A DNA stretch of 6,096 bases from JBBIVP01 sp037439705 [NCBI: bacterium]. GTDB taxonomy: Bacteria > JBBIVP01. The DNA lies in assembly GCA_037439705.1 (NCBI GenBank), contig JBBIVP010000128.1, positions 1 through 6,096 of the forward strand. Reading direction: 5' to 3'. Position 1 is the first letter of the stretch. Every line of letters begins with the position of its first letter. A program made the translations under genes and the position numbers. Below are positions 1 to 6,096 of this stretch, one piece after another. The notes beneath the pieces were generated by a model, which worked only from the letters and a program-made list of their open reading frames with translations, ran no database searches and was not told the DNA's origin.

Positions 1-368
1 AGAAGTACAGGATATGCATCCTCATCAAGAAGAGGAAAACCATCGGAAGAAGAAAGGACAGGGTCAAGAACAACCTTTCCTTTAAAATTTTTAAGGAAAT
101 CCGCAATTTTTTTAACTATGGCTGAATTTCCGAGCATCCCTATTTTTATTCCTGCAATTTTCCCAAACCTTGAGACCTCCTTCAATTGTTTATCAATTAC
201 CTCAGGAGAAAGGTCAAGTTTTCCGCTCACCCTTTTTCCATCCTGAAATGTTAAAGAGGTTATAACGCTCTTTACCTTCCAGCCCATTTTTGAAAATGTC
301 AGGATGTCCCTCAGAATTCCAGCACCACCGCTCGGGTCAAATCCTGCTATGGTTAGAAGAAATTCCAT
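1..368 (-). CDS. thiD: Hydroxymethylpyrimidine/phosphomethylpyrimidine kinase ThiD, 3' part outside window
   Basis: ThiD phosphorylates 4-amino-5-hydroxymethyl-2-methylpyrimidine (HMP) and then HMP phosphate, giving HMP pyrophosphate for thiamine synthesis in the cytoplasm. The 122 visible residues start at ATG 368 and carry the ribokinase-like signatures of the family: IAGFDPSGGAGI at residues 7-18, KIGMLG at 75-80 and VLDPVLSS at 100-107 followed by a Gly and a Leu-Leu pair. The usual VAQNT-like stretch after the first motif reads TFQDGKRV here, a mild divergence. The gene continues past the left edge, so the C-terminal ATP-binding half and catalytic Cys/Gly region are not seen. It overlaps the end of thiE by 16 nt in another frame and has no clear Shine-Dalgarno site, which suggests translational coupling to thiE. 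The pairing with thiE supports the call strongly. Confidence 0.93.
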   Translation of the reverse strand, partial: MEFLLTIAGFDPSGGAGILRDILTFSKMGWKVKSVITSLTFQDGKRVSGKLDLSPEVIDKQLKEVSRFGKIAGIKIGMLGNSAIVKKIADFLKNFKGKVVLDPVLSSSDGFPLLDEDAYPVL

Positions 369-991
369 TTTTTCAGCGCATTAAAAATTTTATCAAGATT
401 TTCTTTTATATTCCCCTTAAATATCCCTGATATCATTGATATTCCTGAAATAGGTAAGTGAAGTAGTTCGTTTATGTTTTCTGAATTTATTCCCCCTATC
501 GCAACAACCGGAATTTTTGAAAACCTGATTACCTCTTCAAGTTTTTCTTTTCCCTGCACTGGCACAGGAATCCCTTTTGTTTCAGTTGGGAAAATTGAGC
601 CAAAGGAGATGTAGTCAGGCCTCAATCCCTTCACTTTTTTAACCTCTTCTAAGGAGTGAACAGAAAGCCCTATGATAAATTTTTTAGGAAGTATTTTTCT
701 TGCAAAATTAACAGGAATGTCATCCTCTCCAAGGTGAACTCCATCCGCGAATGAACACAACGCTACATCAATTCTATCGTTTATTATAAGGATTTTTTTC
801 CATTTTTTTCTTATTCTCAAAGCAATTTCAAAAAATTCCCTATCTGATGAAGGCTTCTTCCAGCGAAGTTGAAGAAAATTTATAGGGAATTTTTTCAAAA
901 TTTTAATGGACGAATCAATATCAGCATTCATTTTCTCTATGTACTCAACATCAATTATTGGGTAGATACCTATTTTCCCAAACTCTATCAC
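353..991 (-). CDS. thiE: Thiamine-phosphate synthase ThiE
   Basis: ThiE joins HMP pyrophosphate to hydroxyethylthiazole phosphate to make thiamine phosphate. From GTG 991 the protein is 212 residues, normal for this TIM-barrel family. Visible signatures are GIYPIID near the N-terminus (E. coli has LGLYPVVD), QLRWK at 41-45, INDRID at 70-75, DGVHLGEDD at 83-91 (Mg/pyrophosphate-binding region), GLSVHS at 108-113, FGSIFPTETK at 130-139 (the conserved T-x-T-K phosphate-binding motif) and VVAIGGI at 162-168. The longest open frame would begin at TTG 1006, but that codon lies inside a near-consensus promoter and has a purine run directly abutting it. GTG 991 sits six bases after TATAAT, which fits a leaderless start, so I prefer it. 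The function is secure; the start is likely but not proven. Confidence 0.93.
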   Translation of the reverse strand: MIEFGKIGIYPIIDVEYIEKMNADIDSSIKILKKFPINFLQLRWKKPSSDREFFEIALRIRKKWKKILIINDRIDVALCSFADGVHLGEDDIPVNFARKILPKKFIIGLSVHSLEEVKKVKGLRPDYISFGSIFPTETKGIPVPVQGKEKLEEVIRFSKIPVVAIGGINSENINELLHLPISGISMISGIFKGNIKENLDKIFNALKKWNFF

Positions 992-997
992 AATATG

Positions 998-1026
998 ATT
1001 ATACAATCTTCCAGATTAGTTATCAA
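998..1026 (-). promoter_or_regulatory. Sigma70-like promoter for leaderless thiE
   Basis: On the minus strand TTGATA (1026-1021) is followed by a 17-bp spacer and TATAAT (1003-998), so 11 of 12 bases match the sigma70 consensus at ideal spacing. Transcription should start about seven bases beyond the -10, which is at or next to the GTG codon at 991. This leaves no 5' leader and hence no room for a TPP riboswitch. No start site has been measured; this is a sequence prediction. Confidence 0.72.
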
Positions 1027-1133: not shown

Positions 1134-1835
1134 TTATTTTTTAACCCCAATTTTGTATTCTTTTATCTTTTTGGTAAGGGTATTTCTGTTAATCCCAAGA
1201 ATTTTTGATGCCTTTACCTTGTTTCCGTTTGCCTTCTCAAGCGCTATTTTAAGAATTATTTTTTCTACTTCACTCACTACGAGATTTATTATCCCTTCTT
1301 CTACTTTTTCAAACCTTTCTATTATTCCATCAAGTTTTGCTCTCAGCACATCTTCCAGTGACACATTTTTAAGTATGTTTGGAAGCTGGTCAACTACTAT
1401 AGCCTTCTTTGATATTCTATCAGAAGCCCCTATATGAAATGCATGTGTAGGTTCATGCCCGAATTCCTTAGCAAGAAGTGCTTTTGAGAAGATGAGGTCA
1501 AGTTTTTCTTCTTCTATTGGTGTTATTAAAAAATCGTTCAGCCCGAACTGTGCAACATCCCTTACGAGTTTCGTGTTTTTCTTTTCAAGGATAAGAACTG
1601 TAAATTTTTCTACATCCTTTAATTCAGAAATTTTTTTAAAAATTTCAACACACCTTTCTCCATCCTTTCCTTCAACAAATATAATGTTAAAACTCCCCTT
1701 AAGGTCTTTTTTGTTAATTTCATCTATTTCTTTTACTGCTTCAAAGGGATATCCTGTCTTTTTTATCAAAGTTTTCATGGTTGAAATAAGCTTTCCTGAA
1801 TCAGAAATGAGATATACCTTCTCACCCGTTTCCAT
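1134..1835 (-). CDS. Transcription regulator: degenerate receiver domain plus Fis-type helix-turn-helix, no AAA+ domain
   Basis: The protein has 233 residues from ATG 1835, which has an AGGAG ribosome site five bases upstream; the longer open frame upstream of this ATG actually covers the zinc-ribbon gene. Residues 5-120 resemble a CheY-like receiver (alternating hydrophobic strands, and a DFLITP segment near 101-106 at the place of the usual D-Y-L-x-K-P). The phosphorylation residues are altered: Glu55 stands where the acceptor Asp is expected, Thr105 replaces the conserved Lys, and the first-strand acidic pair is reduced to SDS. Residues 180-230 form a Fis/NtrC-type C-terminal HTH (KANGNKVKASKILGINRNTL at 201-220). 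The central sigma54-interacting AAA+ domain is absent. It is probably a DNA-binding regulator that does not respond to phosphorylation, perhaps held in an active-like state by Glu. It forms a unit with the preceding zinc-ribbon gene. Target genes are unknown; the divergent Fe-S operon is the nearest candidate. Confidence 0.8.
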   Translation of the reverse strand: METGEKVYLISDSGKLISTMKTLIKKTGYPFEAVKEIDEINKKDLKGSFNIIFVEGKDGERCVEIFKKISELKDVEKFTVLILEKKNTKLVRDVAQFGLNDFLITPIEEEKLDLIFSKALLAKEFGHEPTHAFHIGASDRISKKAIVVDQLPNILKNVSLEDVLRAKLDGIIERFEKVEEGIINLVVSEVEKIILKIALEKANGNKVKASKILGINRNTLTKKIKEYKIGVKK

Positions 1836-1840
1836 ATTGT

Positions 1841-1845
1841 CTCCT
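1841..1845 (-). promoter_or_regulatory. Shine-Dalgarno site deciding the regulator start
   Basis: AGGAG lies five bases before ATG 1835 on the minus strand and overlaps the TAG stop (1846-1844) of the zinc-ribbon gene. It fixes the regulator start at 1835 and links its translation to termination of the upstream gene. Confidence 0.8.
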
Positions 1846-2002
1846 AATAATCCTCGTCCTCTTCTCCTTCTAATTCCTCTTTTCCTTTTTTCACAAGTTT
1901 TATCGGTGTTCCGCAATAGGGGCAAAAAATTGTATCTCCTTCCCTGTCCTGTTCATCAAGAGAGATTTCTGCATCACAGGTTGGGCACTCAATTATTCGC
2001 AT
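1844..2002 (-). CDS. Small LysW-like zinc-ribbon protein, 52 residues
   Basis: This short gene encodes 52 residues from ATG 2002 to TAG. Two CxxC knuckles, Cys6/Cys9 (CPTC) and Cys27/Cys30 (CPYCG), 17 residues apart, form a rubredoxin-type zinc ribbon. The spacing, the D-A-E-I-S-L stretch after the first knuckle, and the strongly acidic tail (EGEEDEDY) resemble LysW/ArgW, the amino-group carrier proteins of lysine and arginine synthesis. Those end in E-D-W-G-E and use the C-terminal Glu as attachment point. This one ends in Tyr and has no lys/arg genes nearby, so a carrier role is unlikely. It may be a zinc- or redox-responsive partner of the regulator that starts 8 nt downstream. There is no Shine-Dalgarno site; a promoter -10 box ends six bases before the ATG, suggesting leaderless translation. 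That the gene is real is well supported by Cys spacing, promoter and spacing to the next gene; its function is unknown. Confidence 0.8.
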   Translation of the reverse strand: MRIIECPTCDAEISLDEQDREGDTIFCPYCGTPIKLVKKGKEELEGEEDEDY

Positions 2003-2008
2003 AGTTCA

Positions 2009-2037
2009 ATTTTATGAACGGAGCAAACATCTTTCAA
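2009..2037 (-). promoter_or_regulatory. Sigma70-like promoter for the zinc-ribbon/regulator unit, leaderless
   Basis: On the minus strand TTGAAA (2037-2032), a 17-bp spacer and TAAAAT (2014-2009) match ten of twelve consensus bases. Six bases separate the -10 from ATG 2002, the same geometry as at thiE, so the transcript should begin at or beside the start codon. The absence of any Shine-Dalgarno site agrees with this. Confidence 0.68.
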
Positions 2038-2051
2038 GCATTTTTTAAAGA

Positions 2052-2065
2052 GGGTTAAATCACCC
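2052..2065. promoter_or_regulatory. Possible operator: short imperfect palindrome in the divergent intergenic region
   Basis: GGGT at 2052-2055 and ACCC at 2062-2065 are inverted about a six-base AT-rich centre, in the middle of the 138-bp region between the divergent zinc-ribbon and nuoE genes. It stands out as the only G/C clusters in an otherwise nearly pure A/T stretch, and lies outside both predicted promoters (15 bases from the minus -35). It could bind the neighbouring regulator, but the arms are only four bases, so chance is a real possibility. Confidence 0.25.
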
Positions 2066-2103
2066 ATTTTAAAAAAATTTAAAGCAAAAATTTATATGAA
2101 TTC

Positions 2104-2131
2104 TTGATAAAATTTTATTTTGAGTTAAAAA
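2104..2131 (+). promoter_or_regulatory. Candidate promoter of the nuoEFG-like operon
   Basis: TTGATA at 2104-2109 (the same -35 hexamer as at thiE) is followed after 16 bp by TAAAAA at 2126-2131, placing the transcript start near 2138, just before the first ATG at 2141. An alternative reading is an extended -10, TG-A-TAAAAT at 2105-2113, with no good -35, giving a leader of about 20-33 bases. The region is so AT-rich that both are tentative. Confidence 0.4.
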
Positions 2132-2140
2132 ATTCTAAAA

Positions 2141-2572
2141 ATGAAGGGAAAAATGAGAAAGTCTATCATTCCTCTTCTTCAGGAAATTCAGAGAAGGGAT
2201 GGGTATATATCAAAAGAAGGAATAAGGGAAATCGCTGAAAAAACAGGTGCAAGTGTTAATGAAATATACGGGATTGCAAGTTTTTATACTCAGTTCAGAT
2301 TTACTCCGCCTGCGAAACACTGCATAAATGTTTGCCTCGGAACAGCCTGTCATGTGAAAGGAGGTTTAAATGTGCTTGAGGCATTTGAAAGGGAATTGAA
2401 AATAAAGGTGGGAGAAATTACTCCGAATGGAGAATTTGAACTGCAAAGGGTGGCATGTGTTGGATGCTGTGCTCTTGCTCCAGTGGTGGTAGTTGATGAG
2501 GAGGTATATCCGAAGAATTCTCCGAGCAGTGTAAAGGAAATCCTTGAGAAATATAAGGGAAAAAATGTCTGA
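2141..2572 (+). CDS. nuoE: NADH dehydrogenase/hydrogenase [2Fe-2S] subunit, NuoE/HymA/HydC type
   Basis: This is the small thioredoxin-like subunit that carries one [2Fe-2S] cluster beside the FMN subunit in complex I NADH modules, NAD-linked formate dehydrogenases and multimeric [FeFe]-hydrogenases. In the 143-residue frame an N-terminal helical region (residues 8-55, with EIYGIASFYTQF) precedes the cluster site: Cys65-x4-Cys70 (CLGTACH) and Cys106-x3-Cys110 (CVGCC followed by ALAP). Cys61 and Cys109 are extra. The length is slightly below the usual 150-165. Two starts compete: ATG 2141 has no ribosome site, while ATG 2153 (M5) has AAGGG four bases upstream, at 2144-2148, almost identical to the site in front of the next gene. 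The shorter 139-residue form is therefore plausible; ATG 2141 would fit a leaderless transcript. The stop overlaps the next start by 8 nt, so the two are co-translated. Confidence 0.92.
   Translation: MKGKMRKSIIPLLQEIQRRDGYISKEGIREIAEKTGASVNEIYGIASFYTQFRFTPPAKHCINVCLGTACHVKGGLNVLEAFERELKIKVGEITPNGEFELQRVACVGCCALAPVVVVDEEVYPKNSPSSVKEILEKYKGKNV
2555..2560 (+). promoter_or_regulatory. Shine-Dalgarno site of the NuoF-like gene
   Basis: AAGGGA lies four bases before ATG 2565, inside the end of nuoE. The same G-run and A-run precede ATG 2153 in nuoE, which supports that codon as the nuoE start. It also argues against TTG 2544 as the start of the NuoF-like gene. Confidence 0.65.
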
Positions 2573-4391
2573 AGAAAAAATTATATTTGTCTGTCAGGGA
2601 ACAGGGTGTGTTTCAAACAAAAGTACTCCCCTTTACAATGCTCTGAAGGAGGAAATTGAGAAGAGGGGAATAAAAAATGTAAAGGTTGATTTTACTGGAT
2701 GTCATGGGTTCTGCGAAAAGGGTCCGCTTGTAATTATAGAGCCGGACGGTATTCTTTATACGCTTGTTAAACCGCATCAGGCAGGAGAAATAATTGAAAA
2801 ACACATCCTCAACGCTCAACTGGTTAAAAATTTTATTTACAGGGACCCGGTTAAGAACGAAGAAATTCCATTATACAAAGATATAGGGTTTTATAAGGGA
2901 CAGACGAGACTCATTCTGAAAAACTGTGGGAATATAAATCCAGAAAGAATTGATGATGCTTTAAAAGTGGGTGCTTATACCGCTTTGAGAAAGGCACTAT
3001 TTGAAATGAAACCAGAGGAGGTGATTGAGGAGATCAAAAAATCAGGCCTCAGGGGAAGAGGAGGGGCAGGTTTCCCGACAGGAATGAAATGGGAAGCCAC
3101 GAGAAGGGCAAAGGGGAAGGAGAAGTACATTATATGTAATGGCGACGAGGGAGACCCAGGAGCATTTATGGACAGGTCTCTCCTTGAAGCGAACCCTCAT
3201 TCTGTAATTGAAGGAATGATAATAGCGGCTTACGCAATAGGTGCAAAGCATGGCTTTATTTATGTTAGGGCAGAATATCCATTGGCAGTTAAGAGGTTGA
3301 GAAAGGCAATAAATGATGCAAGGGAGAGGGGATTCCTTGGAAAATCAATTCTTGGGAAGAAGGGGTTTGATTTTGATATTGAAATAATGGAGGGAGCAGG
3401 CGCATTTGTTTGTGGTGAGGAGACAGCCCTCATCGCATCCCTTGAAGGGAAGAGGGGGATGCCGAGGAAAAGACCACCTTATCCTGCTGAAATGGGATAT
3501 AACGGAAAACCGACAAATATAAACAATGTGAAAACATACGCCTCTGTTCCAGTGATAATAAATAAAGGGGCTGATTATTATGCGAGCATAGGAACTAAAA
3601 CGAGTAAGGGAACAATGGTTTTCGCATTAACTGGAAAAATTAATAATTCTGGGCTCATAGAGGTTCCAATGGGAATAACCCTGAGAAAGATAATATATGA
3701 AATTGGAGGCGGAATCCCTAAAGGTAAAAAATTCAAGGCTGCTCAGACGGGAGGTCCATCAGGTGGGTGCCTTCCAGAGGCATTTCTTGATGTGCCTATA
3801 GATTATGAATCCCTCACATCCGCTGGTTCAATGATGGGTTCAGGAGGAATAATTATTGCAGATGAAGATACATGCATGGTTGATTTTGCAAAATACTTCC
3901 TTGATTTTACACAGAAGGAATCCTGCGGAAAATGCGTGCCCTGCAGGGTCGGAACGAGGCACATGTTTGAGATTTTAACGAGAATAACTCAGGGAAAAGG
4001 GAATGATGGAGACCTTGAACTTCTTGAAAATTTTGCAAAGATAGTCAAGGAAACATCCCTCTGTGGTTTGGGGCAGACTGCTCCAAATCCAGTTCTCACA
4101 ACAATAAGGTATTTCAGAGACGAATACATTGCTCACATAAAAAGAAGGGAATGCCCTGCAAGGGTTTGTAAAGATTTGATTTCATTTTACATTCTTCCTG
4201 AAAAATGTGTCGGCTGTCTTCTCTGCCTCAAAAACTGCCCCACTGGTGCAATAAGTGGGGGATTGAAGAAGGTTCACATTATAAATCAGGAAAAGTGTGT
4301 GAAATGTGGGGTATGCTATGATGTATGTCCACCAAAGGTGAGTGCTGTTGTGAGACTTACAGGAGAAGAAAGGAGGAAGGTCGGTGCCTGA
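2565..4391 (+). CDS. nuoF: NADH-binding FMN/Fe-S subunit, NuoF/HydB/HymB type with N- and C-terminal Fe-S domains
   Basis: The 608-residue protein should oxidise or reduce NAD(P)(H) at FMN and pass electrons to Fe-S clusters. Domains in order: a thioredoxin-like [2Fe-2S] domain (Cys10, Cys15, Cys46, Cys50); the NuoF core with GLRGRGGAGFPTG at 161-173 and NGDEGDPGAFMDR at 192-204 for FMN/NADH; an SLBB region (about 350-435); the N3-type [4Fe-4S] site Cys454-x2-Cys457-x2-Cys460 plus Cys500; and a C-terminal 2[4Fe-4S] ferredoxin (Cys548, 551, 554, 558 and Cys578, 581, 584, 588). Canonical complex I NuoF is about 430-450 residues and lacks both added domains. This layout matches HydB of electron-bifurcating [FeFe]-hydrogenases, HymB and related NAD-reducing subunits. 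An upstream TTG in frame at 2544 is rejected: ATG 2565 has AAGGGA four bases before it and overlaps nuoE by only 8 nt. No FMN or cluster residue appears missing. Confidence 0.95.
   Translation: MSEEKIIFVCQGTGCVSNKSTPLYNALKEEIEKRGIKNVKVDFTGCHGFCEKGPLVIIEPDGILYTLVKPHQAGEIIEKHILNAQLVKNFIYRDPVKNEEIPLYKDIGFYKGQTRLILKNCGNINPERIDDALKVGAYTALRKALFEMKPEEVIEEIKKSGLRGRGGAGFPTGMKWEATRRAKGKEKYIICNGDEGDPGAFMDRSLLEANPHSVIEGMIIAAYAIGAKHGFIYVRAEYPLAVKRLRKAINDARERGFLGKSILGKKGFDFDIEIMEGAGAFVCGEETALIASLEGKRGMPRKRPPYPAEMGYNGKPTNINNVKTYASVPVIINKGADYYASIGTKTSKGTMVFALTGKINNSGLIEVPMGITLRKIIYEIGGGIPKGKKFKAAQTGGPSGGCLPEAFLDVPIDYESLTSAGSMMGSGGIIIADEDTCMVDFAKYFLDFTQKESCGKCVPCRVGTRHMFEILTRITQGKGNDGDLELLENFAKIVKETSLCGLGQTAPNPVLTTIRYFRDEYIAHIKRRECPARVCKDLISFYILPEKCVGCLLCLKNCPTGAISGGLKKVHIINQEKCVKCGVCYDVCPPKVSAVVRLTGEERRKVGA
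4371..4376 (+). promoter_or_regulatory. Shine-Dalgarno site fixing a GTG start
   Basis: A perfect AGGAGG lies seven bases before GTG 4384, within the last codons of the NuoF-like gene. It identifies GTG as the start of the third subunit gene and indicates efficient translation despite the non-ATG codon. Confidence 0.85.
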
Positions 4392-6096
4392 AGTAATAAG
4401 GGCAATAATAAACGGAAAAGAGGTAAAGGCAAAGAAAGGACAGACCATTCTTGAGGTTGCAAGGGAGGAAGGGATATACATTCCAACGCTTTGCACTCAC
4501 AAACTCTTAAGTCCTTATGGTGCATGCAGGGTATGCGTTGTTGAGATTGAGGGTTCTGGGAGGCTTTTTACCTCCTGCAATACAGAACTTGTTGACGGTA
4601 TAGTTGTAAAAACCGATACGGAAAGGGTAAAAAATGCGAGAAGGGCAATTATAGAATTCATGCTTTCAGAACATCCATCTGCCTGCCTTCTTTGTCCATA
4701 TCAAGAGGAGTGTTATGAGATTCAACAGTGCAATGTAAAACTGGGAACGGTTGTGGGATGCAGGTTCTGTGCAAGAGATGGAATATGTGAGCTACAGAAG
4801 GTTGTGAGGGAACTTGGGATAAAGGAGATTTCCTTACCCTCCATATACAGGGGGATTCCGGTTGAAAATGATGACCCATTTTTTGAAAGGGATTATAATC
4901 TCTGCATTCTTTGTGGAAGGTGTGTTAGAATATGTCAGGAAGTAAGAATGACCGGAACCCTTTCATTTTTGAGAAGGGGACCCAGCACAAAGGTTGGGAC
5001 ACTGTTTGACCTCCCCCATTTAGAGGCAGGATGTGAATTCTGCGGTTCCTGTGTTGATGTGTGTCCAACTGGTGCTCTTGTGGAGAGGACGAGAAAGTGG
5101 AAAGGGGTTCCTGAAGAAAGGATTGAAAATATCTGTCCCTTCTGTTCCTTCAATTGTGACATCATTATGGATGTAAAGAAAAAGGAGGTTTTCGCAGTTT
5201 CTTCAACTGAGAATGGGCTTCTATGTTCAAGCGGTAAGTTCGGAACAGCAGGAATGCTTCTTTCTGGAGAAAGGGCAAAATCTCCTTTCATAAAAGATAA
5301 AGGAGAGGTTTCCTGGGATGAGGCTTTATCCTATGCAACTGAAATTTTAAACTCTCATAAAGAGGATGAAATAGGAATTGTTCTATCACCATATTTAACA
5401 AATGAAACAATTCTATCAGCCCTTTCCTTTGCGGAATCCTTAAAAATATCAAAAATCACATCTCCTTCTTTGAAATGGGAAAGTTCAATTTATTCTGAGC
5501 TCTTGCCAAAGAAAAGACCAAGAATCTCCTCTTACAATCTTTTATTGGTTACTACCGAACTTCCAGCACCTATTGAAATAGAGGTAAAGCATGTTTCAGC
5601 CAATGGTGGAGATGTATATGAATTCAATCCATCGGATACATTTCTTACAAGACATGTGAACTCTTTCAGATGTATTCCAGAACCTTCTCTCGTTCTATTG
5701 ACACTTTTTAAAGTTGAAAAGAATAGAAGTGGAAGAAAAGTTAACGAGGAAGTAGAGAAAATTCTTGAAAAGTTTGATATTAAAACCCTGTTGAATCTAT
5801 GCGGAATTTCTGAAAAAGAGGTGGAAGAGTTGAGTGATAGAATAGAAGGGGCTAAAAATAAAGCCTTCATTTATGAATTTCGTTCAATCCATCCGGTTCT
5901 GGTGAAAGAATTTTCATCTGTTTTTTCCATTGTTCCTATTCCCATTATGAAAGACGGAAATGAAAGGGGTATACTTGATATGGCAGAAGAGATGATATCT
6001 TACGATGCTTTCCTTTCTGATGAAAAAATAAAGGTGGTTTATTCCATCGGGGTTCCATTTGCAGGAAATGGAAAAATTACAATCCTTCAGGACCCG
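4384..6096 (+). CDS. nuoG: Composite NuoG/formate-dehydrogenase-alpha-like Fe-S subunit, 5' 571 codons
   Basis: The frame stays open from GTG 4384 to the right edge, giving 571 residues. Domains in order: a plant-type [2Fe-2S] ferredoxin (Cys37, Cys48, Cys51, Cys65); a His-Cys [4Fe-4S] site His97-x3-Cys101-x2-Cys104-x5-Cys110; a second Cys motif Cys126-x2-Cys129-x5-Cys135 followed by ELQ, with Cys116 between; a 2[4Fe-4S] ferredoxin (Cys174, 177, 180, 184 and Cys217, 220, 223, 227); and a molybdopterin-oxidoreductase [4Fe-4S] domain (Cys251-x2-Cys254-x3-Cys258-x22-Cys281) leading into a molybdopterin-binding-like fold. After Cys281 the formate-dehydrogenase Lys is Ser283, and no active-site Cys/Sec context is visible in the next 290 residues, so this part may be non-catalytic as in NuoG. 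It probably collects electrons from the NuoF-like subunit. It could alternatively belong to an NAD-linked formate dehydrogenase or hydrogenase; downstream genes would decide. It overlaps the NuoF-like gene by 8 nt. Confidence 0.9.
   Translation, partial: MPEVIRAIINGKEVKAKKGQTILEVAREEGIYIPTLCTHKLLSPYGACRVCVVEIEGSGRLFTSCNTELVDGIVVKTDTERVKNARRAIIEFMLSEHPSACLLCPYQEECYEIQQCNVKLGTVVGCRFCARDGICELQKVVRELGIKEISLPSIYRGIPVENDDPFFERDYNLCILCGRCVRICQEVRMTGTLSFLRRGPSTKVGTLFDLPHLEAGCEFCGSCVDVCPTGALVERTRKWKGVPEERIENICPFCSFNCDIIMDVKKKEVFAVSSTENGLLCSSGKFGTAGMLLSGERAKSPFIKDKGEVSWDEALSYATEILNSHKEDEIGIVLSPYLTNETILSALSFAESLKISKITSPSLKWESSIYSELLPKKRPRISSYNLLLVTTELPAPIEIEVKHVSANGGDVYEFNPSDTFLTRHVNSFRCIPEPSLVLLTLFKVEKNRSGRKVNEEVEKILEKFDIKTLLNLCGISEKEVEELSDRIEGAKNKAFIYEFRSIHPVLVKEFSSVFSIVPIPIMKDGNERGILDMAEEMISYDAFLSDEKIKVVYSIGVPFAGNGKITILQDP

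Follow-up and report, generated by a model that had tools for sequence, protein, structure and literature searches.

Front genes of a Bfu-type electron-bifurcating enzyme in the bacterium JBBIVP01 sp037439705 and a probable NfnS-NfnL partner suggested by its relatives

The gene run at positions 2,141 to 6,096 of contig JBBIVP010000128.1 (assembly GCA_037439705.1; JBBIVP01 sp037439705, a bacterium) raises the question of where the enzyme that it encodes handles its third substrate. The run consists of bfuC (NuoE-like), bfuB (HydB-like, an extended NuoF) and bfuA (NuoG-like). The window, i.e., the whole stretch of DNA analysed, is 6,096 nucleotides long and ends inside bfuA; thus, the partner of BfuA was looked for in relatives. 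Our favoured reading, which we regard as fairly probable, is that the window holds the front of a transhydrogenase, BfuABC-NfnSL, that would pass electrons from NADH and ferredoxin to NADP. The BfuABC-NfnSL cassette is well supported in the relatives, and the membership of the window in it is likely. We consider the cassette to be a variant of the known Bfu family that is new as such. Loci and genomes are designated by L and G numbers, respectively.

An earlier reading of the letters alone, without database searches (the sequence-only reading), had proposed the gene order NuoE, extended NuoF and NuoG-like subunit, and a HydB-type bifurcating NAD(H) module. We found this order in three overlapping open reading frames (ORFs) on the plus strand of 2141-6096. 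The first, bfuC (2141..2572, plus strand), encodes a [2Fe-2S] thioredoxin-like subunit of 143 amino acid residues (PF01257, E 1.1e-46), and the solved structures closest to it are 8a6t_C (HydC of a bifurcating hydrogenase) and 9n5u_C (NfnC). The second, bfuB (2565..4391, plus strand), encodes an NAD(H)-flavin mononucleotide (FMN) subunit of about 608 residues; its start was read from the DNA as the ATG at 2565, overlapping the stop of bfuC, and the mechanical ORF start is the TTG at 2544. The Complex1_51K, SLBB, NADH_4Fe-4S and C-terminal 2[4Fe-4S] domains of BfuB (PF01512, PF10531, PF10589 and PF00037/PF12838) score above the cut-off, and its N-terminal thioredoxin-like [2Fe-2S] domain scores 25.8 bits against a cut-off of 24.8. 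The top match among solved structures is 7t2r_B (843 bits), HydB of the bifurcating NiFe hydrogenase of Acetomicrobium mobile.

Ligands of BfuB were counted in 17 rows (the window and 16 relatives), with residues numbered from the codon at 2568. The B2 signature positions C436, T474, H523, C529 and C534 (3873..4169, plus strand) have a spacing of 38/87/6/5, which is identical to that of C438, C476, H525, C531 and C536 in A. mobile; these are the B2 ligands there, and position 476 is Thr in about two-thirds of cases (PMC9304861). C436, H523, C529 and C534 are invariant (17/17 rows), and the B1 ligands C453, C456, C459 and C499 sit between the B2 positions. All eight Cys of the B3/B4 2[4Fe-4S] ferredoxin domain (C547-C587; 4206..4328, plus strand; PF00037 in two stretches) are likewise found in every row. 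The presumed B5 [2Fe-2S] ligands are C9, C14, C45 and C49 (2592..2714, plus strand); C45 and C49 occur in 17/17 rows. L061 has a gap at both C14 and C9, and L067 has Ala at C9, which leaves 16 rows with C14 and 15 with C9. The core ligands of BfuB are thus conserved except at position 474. The match of the window genes to the Bfu core including the B2 set is far beyond chance, and by its core features the window enzyme is a member of the Bfu (HydABC-like) family. The extra domains of BfuB and the exact B2 spacing bear out the HydB-type module that had been proposed. The label 'unassigned type' in the same reading has to be seen against what is published: the family was defined in 2022, and 17 BfuB clades in it lack an assigned function (PMC9304861).

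The third gene, bfuA (4384..6096, plus strand; domain models), encodes the NuoG-like subunit, of which the first 571 residues lie in the window. Its N-terminus is of the NuoG/HydA type, with 2Fe-2S, 4Fe-4S and Nqo3-ferredoxin domains. Ligands were counted in 20 rows, i.e., the window and 19 of 35 places with a window-like BfuA (defined as E<=1e-50). The 22 Cys of A1-A5 and an extra motif, together with H97, are invariant in 20/20 rows. These are the A1 [2Fe-2S] ligands C37, C48, C51 and C65 (4492..4578, plus strand); the A2 region H97-x3-C101-x2-C104-x5-C110 ... C126-x2-C129-x5-C135 (4672..4788, plus strand); eight Cys of the A3/A4 2[4Fe-4S] set between C174 and C227 (4903..5064, plus strand; PF22117/PF12838); and the A5 [4Fe-4S] ligands C251, C254, C258 and C281 in a molybdopterin-type Fe4S4 domain (5134..5226, plus strand), which scores weakly (22.1 bits, under the cut-off of 22.7). 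PF10588 gives two stretches in BfuA, which we read as the usual Cys3 motif and an extra one; HydA of A. mobile (7t2r_A) aligns with a single A2 copy, without the extra motif. The extra motif beside A2 would leave room for a putative sixth cluster. Among the 20 rows, C116 occurs in the window only and so provides no conserved fourth ligand for this cluster. An AlphaFold2 model of BfuA built from five sequences had a mean predicted local distance difference test score of 36.9 and was set aside as support.

The visible part of BfuA was examined for a catalytic site of its own. Three H-cluster patterns were absent from residues 1-571, and one of them was found in the controls L047_2 and L014_2. 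The formate dehydrogenase active-site motif (NNVDHCARLCH) was absent in the window and present in the controls L049_2 and L053_2. A molybdopterin-fold domain starts at 5284 and runs to the window end (5284..6096, plus strand), where relatives score PF00384, without the catalytic Cys/Sec motif; residues 301-571 gave no phmmer match below E 0.01 among solved structures. Domain searches found no GltD-domain stretch in residues 1-571, and at the place of the GltD domain in Stn the window BfuA continues with a short insert only. For the visible part we therefore rejected an [FeFe] hydrogenase HydABC (H-cluster patterns absent), a catalytic formate dehydrogenase of Type 1 Fdh-Bfu (active-site Cys/Sec motif absent) and Stn, or Nfn-Bfu Type 1 (no GltD-like domain inside the NuoG-like subunit). 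The sequence-only reading had stated that the visible third subunit lacks an H-cluster motif and has a seemingly inactive molybdopterin domain, and both statements were confirmed by these searches. It had also named a Sec/Cys formate dehydrogenase region and nuo membrane genes as findings that would speak against it; the visible part of the third gene has no such region, and no nuo membrane gene is found among the visible genes, the right flank of bfuA lying beyond the window. The molybdopterin-type domain of BfuA thus appears non-catalytic as far as visible, and for this reason we read BfuA as a probable electron-passing adapter.

The same reading had placed the third-substrate site downstream or in a partner protein, and the relatives support this. 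A window-like BfuA was found in 32/227 Asgard and 2/124 Cloacimonadota genomes, at the 35 places mentioned above; the phylum labels follow the seed loci (one Lokiarchaeia, one Cloacimonadota). Lokiarchaeia belong to the Asgard archaea. The contigs of L074, L075 and L077 end at or inside BfuA, and the remaining 32 places are readable downstream. In 28 of the 32, NfnS and NfnL follow on the same strand, as separate genes in 23 and with NfnS fused to BfuA in five (L072, L073, L101, L103 and L109; ORFs of 888-1121 residues). Counting a piece of NfnS and the fusions as well, BfuA is followed by NfnS in 29/32; at the remaining three places, the ORF that comes next is encoded on the opposite strand. 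The uncut, unfused BfuA proteins linked to Nfn genes are 522-779 residues long. In each of the five fused ORFs, the C-terminal end passes the cut-off of NF004862. Downstream proteins of L079, L066, L073 and L078 likewise pass the cut-offs of NF004862 and/or TIGR01316, the NfnL of each of these four loci that of TIGR01316. In the case of the Cloacimonadota locus L079, NfnL matches 4ylf_B and 5jca_L and NfnS matches 5jca_S, nearly over the full length; for the remaining linked NfnS and NfnL, the assignment came from BLAST matches to the L079 counterparts. Among the downstream ORFs listed for 30 loci with other BfuA types, no separate NfnS or NfnL was found; this control is weak, because many of these loci hold little or no downstream DNA.

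The linked NfnS proteins carry a signature of their own. C107, E132, C189 and W250 (L079 NfnS numbering) occur together in 28/28 linked and 0/12 unlinked NfnS, where the labels were set by adjacency alone, the unlinked proteins came from the neighbourhoods of the examined loci and a search of 20 of 34 genomes, and the partial NfnS of L071 as well as weaker NfnS-like matches (about 30% identity and below) were omitted. The [2Fe-2S] ligands D217, C222, C225 and C237 are kept in 40/40. In the solved NfnS proteins 5jca_S and 4ylf_A, C107, E132 and C189 correspond to G, G and P, respectively. We take it that in the ferredoxin-reductase fold a GGGxG loop and a GP turn line the pyridine-nucleotide pocket, and that C107, E132 and C189 fall in these presumed NAD-binding motifs. 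On this ground, the NAD site of the linked NfnS seems to be remodelled, perhaps lost; Glu at position 132 by itself is no argument against NAD. In an unrooted tree, the linked NfnS and the 12 unlinked ones are split at 100/99 support, which is what a single lineage of the linked form, shared by two domains of life, would give. Both the Glu (LERF/LEKF/LERY) and the Arg of IPEFR are retained in 37/37 NfnL rows, of which 27 are linked (the split NfnL of L070 was omitted). StnC has Lys (Lys170) in the alignment where NfnL carries this Glu; the Arg does not discriminate, since StnC keeps it too. As far as this Glu goes, NfnL resembles the bifurcating NfnB and differs from Stn.

From these features, the following mechanism can be proposed. 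In a soluble complex, BfuB and BfuC would make up the bifurcating FMN/iron-sulfur core, at which electrons are exchanged with NAD(H) and ferredoxin; NADH and reduced ferredoxin would meet there and yield mid-potential electrons. BfuA would conduct these electrons through A1-A3, and perhaps the extra cluster beside A2, to the partner, most likely an NfnS-NfnL pair encoded just past the window. NfnS, with flavin adenine dinucleotide (FAD), a [2Fe-2S] cluster and a remodelled NAD pocket, would bridge NfnL and BfuA, with the NAD site provided by BfuB, and NfnL would bind NADP(H) and FAD and reduce NADP+; the reverse direction may also be possible. The net reaction would then be a reversible NADP+ reduction dependent on NADH and ferredoxin. 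Its stoichiometry would depend on NfnL, which appears bifurcation-competent by sequence; if the FAD of NfnL also bifurcates, it would provide a second entry or exit site for ferredoxin. Because the genes of most of the nearest known relatives run into a second NADP(H)-handling bifurcating module, the enzyme may be a two-engine balancer of electron carriers.

This last idea can be taken further, although only tentatively. The products of the cassette may form a single five-subunit complex with two bifurcation engines, the Bfu FMN/iron-sulfur core and the Nfn FAD, connected in series by a NuoG-like adapter that is itself non-catalytic and bears an additional iron-sulfur cluster. NfnS would act as the bridge after loss of its NAD site or with a new metal or disulfide, given that Cys replaces Gly, Glu replaces Gly/Ser and Cys replaces Pro in the presumed NAD-binding motifs. 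The cassette occurs in both Asgard archaea and bacteria, and a nested branch has a ferredoxin domain in place of Nfn, perhaps towards Hdr. If the two-engine reading were true, ferredoxin acting at two sites could give NADP+ reduction a stronger drive than either Nfn or Stn provides by itself.

We studied the position of the window in two trees. The BfuB tree, a quick one, comprised the window and 39/44 candidates; ORFs shorter than 360 residues, including the cut BfuB of L078, were omitted. It pairs the window with the Nfn-linked Cloacimonadota locus L079 (SH-aLRT, an approximate likelihood ratio test, 94). The BfuA tree was built from the window and 63/65 sequences (L003 and one ORF shorter than 290 residues were omitted), without the insert columns 105-133 and the residues beyond 360. 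In this tree, 24/28 rows of other types are split from the rest at 100/98, and the four L020-type rows fall on the insert-bearing side. The next branch beside the window is L078/L079, which are Nfn-linked.

Several points weigh against placing the window in the BfuABC-NfnSL cassette. The partner genes themselves lie beyond the window, and co-transcription and complex formation are inferred from gene order, overlap and fusion. In the BfuA tree the window sits alone and joins the 24 non-insert rows at 95/85, and no sampled relative exceeds 47% identity to its BfuA; the window is placed near the base of the insert-bearing group and may fall outside the Nfn-linked group. In BfuB, none of the 16 relatives shares the Thr of the window at position 474 (they carry R, K, I, S or V there), and C9 is replaced by Ala in one row. 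Four readable places lack a full NfnS and NfnL pair: L071 has an NfnS piece of 168 residues without an adjacent BfuB or BfuC, and a search of its genome (G175) at E<=1e-15 found no NfnS; L076, L102 and L108 lack NfnS, and their BfuA, of 971-994 residues, ends in a 2[4Fe-4S] domain. The NfnL of L070 lies in two ORFs and the BfuB of L105 is split, both counted as present and left unmended. Finally, the sample covers only two phyla that hold the family. Owing to the basal position in the BfuA tree, we put the reading with an NfnS-NfnL partner at fairly probable and not higher.

Of the rival explanations, a known Type 3 Bfu enzyme, followed downstream by either a NiFe hydrogenase (HydSL) or a catalytic FdhA as a separate protein, survives best and is nevertheless unlikely. 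The NiFe-HydABCSL of A. mobile (Type 3; 7t2r; PMC8880783) is like the window in its BfuC and BfuB with B1-B5 and its BfuA with A1-A5; its HydB is the top match of BfuB, and its HydA is matched by BfuA, in which A1-A5 are complete as in Type 3, including A3 and A5, which Type 3 Bfu requires. In this enzyme too, BfuA has no catalytic site of its own, and the third-substrate site lies in extra subunits. However, its HydA has one A2 motif and its partner is a NiFe hydrogenase, whereas the window relatives mostly have NfnSL; none of the 32 readable relatives has anything but NfnS, a piece of it or an opposite-strand ORF next to BfuA.

A partner module of the HdrABC type, to which a C-terminal ferredoxin domain of BfuA would pass electrons (to HdrA/HdrBC), is improbable in our view. 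The long BfuA proteins of L076, L102 and L108 end in such a domain, HdrA-like genes adjoin L076, L077 and L108 on the opposite strand (the neighbour of L076 scores 469 bits with NF040770, under the cut-off as only part of the model is covered), and in L077 bfuC is preceded by a gene for a CCG-domain (HdrB/D-like) protein. However, the HdrA-like genes lie outside the BfuA run and are lacking at L102, and the type is found in only 3/32 readable places. The rows on this Hdr side are among the least window-like (235-246 bits, versus up to 345), although the Nfn-linked L109 also scores 238, and they nest among the fused BfuA-NfnS rows in both the BfuB and the BfuA trees. The extra A2 motif is also found in the Hdr-side rows and thus marks a group wider than the Nfn-linked cassette. 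As a separate observation, the 2[4Fe-4S] ends of these long BfuA proteins in place of NfnS, together with the HdrA-like genes adjoining L076 and L108, suggest that partner modules have been swapped on a common adapter.

Similarly doubtful is a Bfu enzyme whose kind has yet to be assigned and whose partner is found outside the sampled relatives. The window BfuA forms a long lone branch at the base (0.69), and the clades without assigned function leave room for such an enzyme, but the insert and every invariant ligand of the Nfn-linked group are present in the window too, and the adjacent branch L078/L079 is Nfn-linked. The NADH module (NuoEFG or Nuo-Bfu) of complex I is very unlikely: the NuoE, NuoF and NuoG models match the window proteins, mostly under the curated cut-offs, but BfuB carries the B2-B5 ligands, which non-bifurcating homologues such as Nqo of T. 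thermophilus lack (PMC9304861), and bfuC heads its run, with 2.1 kb to the left without nuoA-D; Nuo-Bfu genes sit in the middle of nuo clusters (PMC9304861).

The BfuABC-NfnSL cassette favoured here can be compared with other systems. Stn (StnABC, 8oh5; similar chains 9bov and 9n5u; PMC10482914, PMC7483475) also combines a HydBC-type core and a NuoG-like subunit with an NADP(H)-binding flavin domain of the NfnB/GltD type, and the reaction inferred here is the same as that of Stn. In Stn, however, GltD lies inside the NuoG-like subunit (the alignment with Stn breaks at the A2 region, the site of this domain), FAD bifurcation is lost (Lys170 for the Glu of NfnB), and the enzyme is described as having 'no NfnA homologue'; in the window relatives, NfnL is separate and keeps the Glu, and NfnS (NfnA) is present or fused to BfuA. 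NfnAB/NfnSL (5jca, 4ylf) resembles the downstream proteins of L079, which align nearly over the full length and keep the [2Fe-2S] and [4Fe-4S] ligands, but it has no HydBC homologue and lacks the three signature residues C107, E132 and C189. Bam-Bfu (BamB-I) and the sub-type I BfuABC of Hydrogenedentota are alike in joining a Bfu core to a second possible bifurcating flavin centre; this centre is not NfnSL but HdrA or, in an [FeFe]-hydrogenase, a possible FAD site (for Hydrogenedentota, see PMC11406978). By the published definition, Bam-type (Type 2) BfuA is without A3 and A5, and the window BfuA has both. In ANME-1, an HdrA with an NfnB-like insertion has been described (PMC9012536). No BfuABC/NuoEFG set with separate NfnS and NfnL was found in the limited literature consulted, which left most subscription papers and all preprints uncovered.

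Searches in other collections gave little. No close relatives were found in viral contigs by a pattern method, and a scan of genome contigs gave distant loci only. Plasmid records (337 matches, all below 60% identity) were set aside; the 20 listed are 30-32% identical and are NuoG where annotated. In the phylum of an Aenigmatarchaeota seed, 0/145 genomes matched at E<=1e-30, a result of little weight because the seed itself matches only at 5e-25.

Some genes near the relatives deserve mention. In L079, a 423-residue Fe-hydrogenase-like protein (5534-6805; Fe_hyd_lg_C and an FeS domain) ends one base before bfuC, and the BfuA of this locus shows no H-cluster pattern despite that gene. In some Asgard genomes, a second composite lies near the cassette: an ORF of about 615 residues that begins, by eye, like an FAD-type reductase and has a C-terminal NfnS, followed by another NfnL (L063 2329-4173, L064 16127-17974, L065 16371-18218 and L068 1397-3244). 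A further Asgard NuoG-like type (L020 7582-10113 and L038-L040) shows matches to NfnL/GltD as well, and its A2 region holds another insert rich in Cys; the neighbours of L020 are, by eye, genes for a 2-hydroxyacyl-CoA dehydratase and its activator.

In the window itself, a divergent intergenic region (2003..2140) separates bfuC, at the head of its run, from a leftward gene on the minus strand. A promoter-like scan of 1800-2300 gave 4 matches versus 1.6 expected, and an inverted repeat lies at 2041-2076; neither is decisive. The leftward gene (1844-2002, minus strand) encodes a zinc-ribbon protein of 52 residues, LysW-like by eye, that has two CxxC pairs (MRIIECPTCDAE...), and it sits between bfuC and a regulator (1134-1925, minus strand) with a C-terminal Fis-type helix-turn-helix (PF02954) and an N-terminal half that is receiver-like by eye. 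The likely start of the regulator is an internal ATG near 1835 rather than the TTG at 1925. Further to the left (3-1006, minus strand), thiE overlaps the start of thiD; these thiamine genes have no bearing on the present finding.

Asgard archaea are tied to the origins of eukaryotes, and the cassette suggests how some uncultured members may balance NADH, NADPH and ferredoxin. As HydBC-, NuoG-, NfnA- and NfnB-like proteins are encoded in one cassette, it would provide a test of the gain or loss of bifurcation by one flavin fold beside another engine. The NfnS signature, in turn, offers a cheap sequence marker for the BfuABC-NfnSL complex.

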